From a virus, in the IMG/VR virus record IMGVR_UViG_3300033273_000422, positions 1 through 27,813 of that record: DNA of 27,813 bases. One strand, written 5' to 3'. The translations under genes and the position numbers were made by a program. The notes beneath the pieces are model-generated. The model had not been told where the DNA came from, did no database searches, and saw nothing but the letters and a program-made list of their open reading frames with translations. Position 1 is the stretch's first letter. Each line of letters starts with the position of its first letter. Below, piece by piece: positions 8,226-10,049 of this stretch.

Positions 8226-8792
8226 TCACCGCAACCATGTGACGATTGCGTATCTGGTCCCGTTATTTACTGTTTTTACTTCATGCGGAAACATGAAGTT
8301 TGATGGGAATATAACTACCGAACCCACTTTGGGTGGAATTACATATCCATCATCGAAGAATGATAGTTCACCTCCCTCATAATTGTCGTTTAAGACAATA
8401 GACATCGAGAGGATTCTCTTTGCTGATTTTATATCGTCAGTGTGACTACGATGATACCCACCATCGTTATATCTCAACAAATTATATCCACTATCTCCAT
8501 CAACTCTTACACCAAATTCATCTTTATACTTTTCAGCACAACTATGAACTTTTCGGTAAGTAAGTATATCTAACTTATATCTAACATCTGGATTTTTATT
8601 CAATGAAGAAACTCCAGACATATCTAGGTCTTCACAGACTCTGTAGTTATCAACATTGCCTTCAGTTGTGGCAACATTCCATTCATCTGATGAGGAATAC
8701 TCATCCAGAATGGTTTTACACTCCTCTTCACTAAAAACATTATCATAAGTTTTAATGAAATTGAAAAGTGTTGAATTACTTTCCAATTTCAC
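8226..8792 (-). CDS. 2OG-Fe(II) oxygenase, prolyl 4-hydroxylase-like
   Basis: About 188 residues. Double-stranded beta-helix with iron ligands H117-x-D119 (RSHTDD) and H170 (FPHEV), and R180 for 2-oxoglutarate (NGTRYAIVTW); YEGGELSFFDD is typical of prolyl 4-hydroxylase-like enzymes. It couples 2OG decarboxylation to hydroxylation of an unknown substrate, protein or nucleic acid. GTG 8792 is chosen as start because GAGGGAG lies 9 nt upstream; a TTG at 8816 would add eight residues. The usual length for phage members is 180-200. Confidence 0.88.
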   Translation of the reverse strand: MKLESNSTLFNFIKTYDNVFSEEECKTILDEYSSSDEWNVATTEGNVDNYRVCEDLDMSGVSSLNKNPDVRYKLDILTYRKVHSCAEKYKDEFGVRVDGDSGYNLLRYNDGGYHRSHTDDIKSAKRILSMSIVLNDNYEGGELSFFDDGYVIPPKVGSVVIFPSNFMFPHEVKTVNNGTRYAIVTWLR

Positions 8793-9286: not shown

Positions 9287-9319
9287 AAAATTTATCCTAA
9301 AGTTAATTAACTCCGATGT

Positions 9320-9327
9320 TATTTATA
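9320..9327 (-). promoter_or_regulatory. T4-type late promoter TATAAATA
   Basis: Exact T4 late consensus on the minus strand, 34 nt before the ATG of the 55-residue gene. It directly follows the U-run of the tmRNA terminator. Confidence 0.65.
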
Positions 9328-9352
9328 AAAAAATAGAGGGCATCGCACCCCC
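9327..9352 (-). terminator. Terminator of the tmRNA gene
   Basis: Minus strand GGGGG...CCCTC stem with G-U pairs, then TATTTTTTTAT. Ends the tmRNA transcript and abuts the late promoter. Confidence 0.65.
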
Positions 9353-9590
9353 AAGAGTCTATTGGATTAGAAGGAAGACCTATCCCCCATCTCCCATATC
9401 AGGCAGCAACGGTGCTGCGGGAGAATGCAACAATGTTATTTGCTGCGGTTTCAGATGTGTTTGCATCTATGTTTATGTCCCGTCAACAATTACGACCTTT
9501 TTGCCCCGTCGAAACCATGGCACCCCCGTGAATGGAGGTGAGGGGAATCGAACCCCTGTCCGAAACAACAGACTTCGCAACCTCTTGGAC
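9336..9590 (-). ncRNA. ssrA: Circularly permuted tmRNA (two-piece ssrA)
   Basis: Ribosome-rescue RNA with its halves in reversed order. Transcribed first (9590-9533): the acceptor half, with TTTCGGACAGGGGTTCGATT, T-arm AGGGG/CCCCT (9541-9558), then CACCTCC and discriminator A (9533). A 5-nt linker (9528-9532) follows, then the coding half from 9527: GGGGGTG, then the tmRNA hallmark GGTTTCGACGGGG. GGGGGTG pairs with CACCTCC over 7 bp including G3-U70, the alanine identity pair. CCA is not encoded. The tag frame is at 9399-9443. Permuted ssrA is known in marine picocyanobacteria, and this tag looks like theirs. Exact ends of the mature pieces are estimated. Confidence 0.93.
9399..9443 (-). other. 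tmRNA proteolysis-tag reading frame
   Basis: Encodes ANNIVAFSRSTVAA and TGA. It matches the ANNIV..FSR...AA pattern of cyanobacterial tmRNA tags and ends in AA, the usual ClpXP degron. The resume codon is GCA 9443 or the GCA just before it (9446). An AGATG/CATCT helix lies upstream. Confidence 0.9.
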
Positions 9591-9597
9591 ATTTTAT

Positions 9598-9626
9598 ATA
9601 GTAATTCAACTTCCTTCATTAGTCAA
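9598..9626 (-). promoter_or_regulatory. Sigma70 promoter of the tmRNA
   Basis: TTGACT (9621-9626), 17-nt spacer, TACTAT (9598-9603). It lies in the last codons of the deformylase gene and spans its stop (9606-9608). Confidence 0.55.
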
Positions 9627-10049
9627 GTAGTCGGTAAATATAACCCCATCTAAGTGGTCAATTTCATGTTGAAGGATTCTGGATTTAAGACCACTTACAG
9701 TCGTCACATCTGGTTTACCGTTAATATCTCTGTACCTCACCATAACTTTATCTGGACGTGCGATGTCTTCATAAACTCCAGGAACACTCAAACATCCCTC
9801 ATTGATAGTCACAAGGTTTGCGTCTTTAGATAAAATCTCTGGATTGATTAGAATCCAGTTACGACCACCATCATCAACAACTACAATTCTTTTGTTTACT
9901 CCTACCTGAGGTGCTGATATACCAATTCCCTTTGCTTCACGCATAGTCTTACACAACTCAACACAAAAATCACGAAGTTCAACATTTATGCGAGAAACTC
10001 TCTTTGATTTTCTTCTTAGACAAGGTGCATTGTCTGTGTAGATTTTCAT
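9606..10049 (-). CDS. def: Peptide deformylase
   Basis: Removes the formyl group from N-terminal Met of new proteins. All three motifs are intact: GIGISAPQVG (41-50), EGCLSVPG (84-91, metal ligand C86) and QHEIDHLDG (127-135, ligands H128 and H132, catalytic E129). 147 residues, shorter than cellular enzymes (about 170), as usual for cyanophage deformylases, which lack the C-terminal helix. AGGAGAG precedes the ATG. Cyanophage deformylases are thought to keep photosystem proteins such as D1 maturing during infection. Its 3' end carries the tmRNA promoter. Confidence 0.95.
   Translation of the reverse strand: MKIYTDNAPCLRRKSKRVSRINVELRDFCVELCKTMREAKGIGISAPQVGVNKRIVVVDDGGRNWILINPEILSKDANLVTINEGCLSVPGVYEDIARPDKVMVRYRDINGKPDVTTVSGLKSRILQHEIDHLDGVIFTDYLTNEGS

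Follow-up and report, generated by a model that had tools for sequence, protein, structure and literature searches.

The window analyzed here, a 27.8-kb virus record from IMG/VR, carries nine tRNA genes together with genes for a transaldolase, a peptide deformylase and several 2OG-Fe(II) oxygenases. As its DNA also resembles cyanophage records by sequence match, the window is best regarded as a fragment of a cyanomyovirus. Between positions 8226 and 14800, several 2OG-Fe(II) oxygenase-like genes and single tRNA genes follow one another in alternation, an arrangement that resembles an array of cassettes. Positions 9336–9626 (minus strand, as for all the features described below) form a complete, circularly permuted tmRNA gene of the cyanobacterial type. 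A preliminary description of the locus had proposed a phage-encoded, permuted tmRNA with a cyanobacterial-style tag, and every part that it named is present.

In the direction of transcription, the locus begins with a promoter-like, sigma-70-like sequence, TTGACT-17-TACTAT (9598–9626; nine of 12 matches), which overlaps the 3'-end of the gene directly upstream; this neighbour, outside the tmRNA, codes for a peptide deformylase (9606–10049; Pfam PF01327, E 8.7e-46). The acceptor piece (9533–9583; its 5'-end is predicted), as placed by the RF04321 and RF01851 alignments and by covariation, includes the 5'-strand of a helix that joins the two pieces, the T-arm (9557–9541), the 3'-strand of the acceptor stem, CACCTCC (CACCUCC in the RNA; 9540–9534), and the discriminator A (A73; 9533); the CCA is not encoded. 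A linker of 5 nt, UUCAC (9532–9528), presumably removed at maturation, is followed by the 5'-strand of the acceptor stem, GGGGGUG (G1–7; 9527–9521), and then by CCAUGGUUUCGACGGGG. The acceptor half thus precedes the coding half, and the two pair over 7 bp, G3-U70 among them, both as originally claimed. The coding piece (9353–9527, from RF01851) consists of GGGGGUG, GGUUUCGACGGGG, the 3'-strand of the inter-piece helix, the tag ORF and downstream helices, and a terminator-like hairpin with a T run follows (9336–9352), to which the last hairpin of RF01851 aligns. The tag frame (9399–9443), assigned from the sequence and from pN/pS (see below), comprises the resume codon, ANNIVAFSRSTVAA and a UGA stop; its 14 encoded residues end in a hydrophobic Ala-Ala, the VAA end being kept, and the charged tmRNA itself would supply one extra Ala ahead of them. 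The ends of the mature RNA and the cutting of the transcript at this locus are predictions.

Both covariance models used to check the identification, as the preliminary description had suggested, matched above their gathering scores: RF01851, the Rfam cyanobacterial tmRNA, with 127.5 bits (E 1.4e-34; threshold 70 bits) over window positions 9607–9337 and model positions 1–288, and RF04321, a permuted model, with 90.8 bits (cut-off 47) over positions 9582–9399. A permuted tmRNA was also called independently by ARAGORN, at 9308–9622; together with the E value, this call far exceeds what chance would explain. ARAGORN places the start of the tag seven codons further upstream in this frame (ANTSETA-ANNIV...), but the host tags and the beginning conserved among phage tags favor ANNIV as the likely start.

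Conservation and ancestry of the phage genes

Relatives were gathered from phage records, viral contigs and 120 host loci by pattern, and from further host loci by covariance model; most loci returned by a viral scan with the GGATTCGAC core pattern lacked a tag of the cyanobacterial type. Across 37 aligned sequences, 23 consensus pairs join the two halves and 13 of these show compensatory changes on both sides, including pairs in the acceptor stem and in the helix that joins the halves; G3-U70 is invariant in all 37. Moreover, the tag frame is under purifying selection: over the first nine tag codons of 25 distinct phage versions, pN/pS is 0.20, whereas the other two frames give 1.90 and 4.18, and the exact peptide of the window, ANNIVAFSRSTVAA, is encoded by eight different nucleotide versions.

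The adjacency of the deformylase gene and the presence of a promoter and a terminator belonging to the tmRNA gene itself, all noted at the outset, were confirmed, and the first two recur elsewhere. The deformylase-tmRNA order is found in six other viral contigs (L305, L009, L022, L020, L010 and L016), and wherever the two genes are directly adjacent the promoter lies inside the 3'-end of the deformylase gene. A TTGACA-like/TAnnAT promoter is located at a constant distance (13–17 nt) upstream of 27 of 78 phage genes with differing flanks (26 loci for a strict version of the promoter), whereas many other phage tmRNA genes lie directly 3' of a tRNA gene instead. In S-CAM1 and S-CAM3, a like tmRNA and promoter type occur at another location, with no deformylase gene upstream. 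Because the pair is kept in differing neighbourhoods, the promoter and tmRNA gene seem to move between phages as a cassette. The compensatory pairs, the selection on the tag and the promoter kept across neighbourhoods indicate that the gene is very probably functional.

Unusual copies were also seen. In L010 (5567–5725) and L016, beside an intact tmRNA gene, a second promoter and acceptor half stand right after the deformylase gene, and the start of a coding half runs into the 3'-half of a tRNA-Ala(TGC), giving the look of a recombination product. Two host genomes carry diverged second tmRNA-like copies: one (L369; G012:C1:926930-927148) shows an acceptor of the phage type, GGGGGTG/CACCTCC, together with a possible tag, ANNIKRTERTLAIAA, and the other (L368; G101:C1:862708-862935) is without the tRNA-like start of the coding half.

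In an unrooted tree of genes from phages (47) and hosts (61), calculated from a short alignment (167 columns) that leaves out the tag tail, all phage genes fall on one side of a 100/100 branch that separates them from the host genes, and the nearest relative of the window gene is that of L305 (99% identical). Of 150 genomes of the host order, 148 have an ssrA, which scores 280–334 bits with RF01851, against 74–143 bits for the phage genes. The split and the lower scores suggest that the phage form is an old, separately evolving version, long kept by phages; recent capture from a host is rejected, as phage and host genes lie on opposite sides of the branch. Scores so far under those of the hosts raise the possibility that some interaction of the tmRNA could have changed in the phage form.

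Proposed maturation and role in ribosome rescue

Among the relatives the linker measures 4–9 nt, or 88–90 nt when a tRNA-Tyr is nested in it. A complete tRNA-Tyr(GTA) lies between A73 and G1 in seven phage contigs (L267, L279, L289, L291, L304, L331 and L334), with both tmRNA halves intact save in L334, which ends within the coding half; among these phages the tag tail takes three different forms, and upstream regions of both kinds occur. Since a nested tRNA-Tyr can mature only if the linker is cut out, this arrangement supports excision of the linker by tRNA processing, and thus a two-piece maturation in phages. Linkers of 73–89 nt without a tRNA (the L240 type) were set aside, as by sequence they look like those of betaproteobacterial-type permuted tmRNAs. 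Permuted tmRNAs with a linker that forms a long hairpin (about 89 nt) are present in viral contigs L240, L255, L262, L265, L269, L277, L280, L317, L321 and L323; the tags readable in L240 and L255 have an LAA end.

In the hosts, maturation into two pieces was established by Northern blotting in Prochlorococcus and Synechococcus WH8102 (PMC1242208), and cutting, CCA addition, charging and the use of SmpB are proposed for the phage RNA by analogy with the host tmRNA. SmpB was not detected in 11 phage records, with control genomes positive, nor was ClpP in 10 phage records. As no SmpB is detectable in the phages searched, trans-translation by the phage tmRNA most likely relies on host SmpB.

Our results concern the architecture of the gene, its structural conservation, the selection on its tag and the conservation of its promoter, and we consider it likely, with good confidence, that this is a functional phage ssrA gene whose RNA is processed by the host and acts with host SmpB in ribosome rescue and tagging. 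A short transcript would start at the host-type promoter and end at its own terminator; host tRNA-processing enzymes would cleave it at G1 and behind the discriminator A, with CCA added afterwards, and pairing in the acceptor stem and in the long inter-piece helix would hold the two pieces together. The tmRNA would receive alanine by way of G3-U70 and be bound by host SmpB; it would then enter ribosomes stalled on broken or nonstop mRNA, add (A)ANNIVAFSRSTVAA and free them. The likely gain would be additional ribosome rescue at a stage of infection when host mRNA and other RNAs of the host are being degraded; since the hosts already possess ssrA, the need for a phage copy is something that we infer. 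With its VAA end, the product of the window copy should still go to host ClpXP.

Divergence of the tag tails and alternative readings

A tmRNA has two jobs, the release of the ribosome and the marking of the protein for destruction. Host tags have 16 residues and end in Ala-Ala at all 188 host loci sampled (117 + 71, in sets drawn separately, so that species may overlap). ANNIVAFSRSTVAA was found at none of the 188, in line with the initial remark that the tag differs from host tags. When tags were read with a looser rule admitting other bases before TGG, only five of 29 distinct phage tags (30 of 91 contigs) ended in Ala-Ala, which is absent from the other 24 (61 contigs); the endings found in its place are ATA, VTA, VPA, VAV, ATV, SLV, QTV and AAL. 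Cultured phages without it include S-SSM7 (isolation host WH8109) and Sf-FS3 (isolation host WH8102). For distinct tags, the difference between phages and hosts gave a Fisher p of 1e-5 in an earlier, smaller set, a value to be read with the relatedness of the tags and possible overlap between contigs in mind. Mapped onto the tree, the endings imply at least three changes on well-supported branches, and six by parsimony.

The ClpXP protease of E. coli takes the terminal Ala-Ala as its main signal; replacing either Ala raises the KM (PMC7652416). If cyanobacterial ClpX acts like that of E. coli, most cyanophage tags, without the Ala-Ala end, should be poorer ClpXP signals. The earlier suggestion of a phage tag of altered proteolysis does not hold for the window copy, for which an altered degron is rejected because the host-like VAA end is retained; by their sequences, it would instead fit most phage relatives of the window gene. 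It could be argued from the tails, from their presence in cultured phages, from the repeated changes of ending and from the KM effect that the tmRNA is kept because its tag alters the fate of rescued proteins, through escape from ClpXP, slower degradation or another protease, with release uncoupled from host-style proteolysis. However, the window peptide, VAA included, is preserved through synonymous changes, relaxed selection on the tail would also produce such variety, and the evidence on ClpX comes from E. coli and not from cyanobacteria; we regard this explanation as unlikely. Either an altered protein fate is selected, or proteolysis is of little weight to the phage and the tail drifts.

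Tentative, and less likely than not, is a wider reading in which cyanophage tmRNAs would be phage-adapted rescue RNAs. Their tags would have lost or rewritten, more than once, the Ala-Ala recognized by ClpXP, so that during infection ribosomes would be freed without host-style destruction of the product, and in some phages the gene would also carry the tRNA-Tyr nested in the linker. Cyanophages apparently offer a natural experiment that parts the two jobs, with one rescue RNA and differing protein fates; their tags constitute a set of defined degron variants for cyanobacterial ClpXP, and the nested tRNA-Tyr a probe of two-piece cutting.

Two further explanations are very improbable. The main effect of the phage RNA might be to compete for SmpB with the tmRNA of the host, a role put forward for the tRNA-domain-only tmRNA of mycobacteriophage DS6A; in E. 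coli, tmRNA is inhibited by a phage tmRNA of this kind (PMC4131195; PMC11915505) and SmpB was not found in the phage records searched, but a pure competitor would not need the tag frame, which is whole and under purifying selection. A tag-less tmRNA of the DS6A type is itself ruled out by the complete frame. tmRNA and tRNA genes are frequent integration sites, and a functionless host fragment, acquired through recombination or retained as a site for integration or recombination, would suit the several neighbourhoods of the gene and the truncated tmRNA fused to a tRNA-Ala half in L010 and L016, but covariation and pN/pS reject such a relic, and the conserved promoter and the old, separate phage group also count against it.

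Comparison with known phage and host tmRNAs

A survey published in 2022 listed 53 two-piece tmRNAs among sequenced phages, 50 of them marine or aquatic and cyanophage ones included; its tree shows a cyanobacterial lineage common to cyanobacteria and their phages, AG-345-P14 being named, and it was proposed that the tmRNAs both assist the hijacked machinery and tag host proteins (PMC9004378). Elsewhere, 79 unique phage tmRNAs were reported (PMC11915505). The preliminary description had left undecided whether the gene was already described: its kind is known (PMC9004378), whereas its exact sequence was not found, which makes it a newly seen member of that kind. No earlier report of the divergence of the tails or of the linker-nested tRNA was found in the literature searched, which mostly did not include subscription papers; cyanophage tag tails are not treated in the main text of the 2022 survey (PMC9004378). 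The phages described there (Melnitz, Mosig, AG-345-P14 and others) share with the window a permuted ssrA in a marine phage and an early-type promoter, but the Melnitz gene, unlike the window gene, is of the alphaproteobacterial type and linked to a glutamine riboswitch (PMC9004378).

In the reference cyanophage records checked, the gene has been missed or mis-called, and correction would be worthwhile. In S-CAM3, S-SSM7 and Sf-FS3 it is covered, at least in part, by an annotated 'hypothetical protein', and nothing is annotated over the tRNA-like part in S-CAM1 (HQ634177) and S-CRM01. The open reading frames that overlap a tmRNA wholly or partly are SSSM7_025 (GU071098; L006:3982-4200), T040910_205 (KU686198; L003:3997-4137) and SfFS3_24 (PV340856; L005:4235-4444); SSSM7_025 and T040910_205 are probably not real proteins.

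The tmRNAs of mycobacteriophages and of phage G are of the one-piece form and belong to other host groups. Mycobacteriophages (Bxz1 and others) and Bacillus phage G likewise carry an ssrA gene (PMC4131195). The comparison with host ssrA and other cyanophages, also suggested at the outset, yields a distinct phage group. Among the closest known genes are those of S-CAM1 and S-CAM3, which align with 78% of the query at about 90% identity; they share with the window the tag ANNIVAFSRSTVAA and the type of promoter, but have tRNA-Arg and tRNA-Val as neighbours and no upstream deformylase. With the two-piece tmRNA (RF01851) of marine Synechococcus and Prochlorococcus, the window gene has in common the permuted order, the acceptor stem with G3-U70, the inter-piece helix, the ANN/ANK-IV-x-FSR start of the tag and its AA end. 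It differs from the host form in its score (127 versus 280–334 bits), in its place in a separate phage group on the tree, in the fifth acceptor pair, which is G-C in the window gene and C-G or T-A in hosts, and in its tag, of 14 residues with an STVAA tail as against 16 in hosts.
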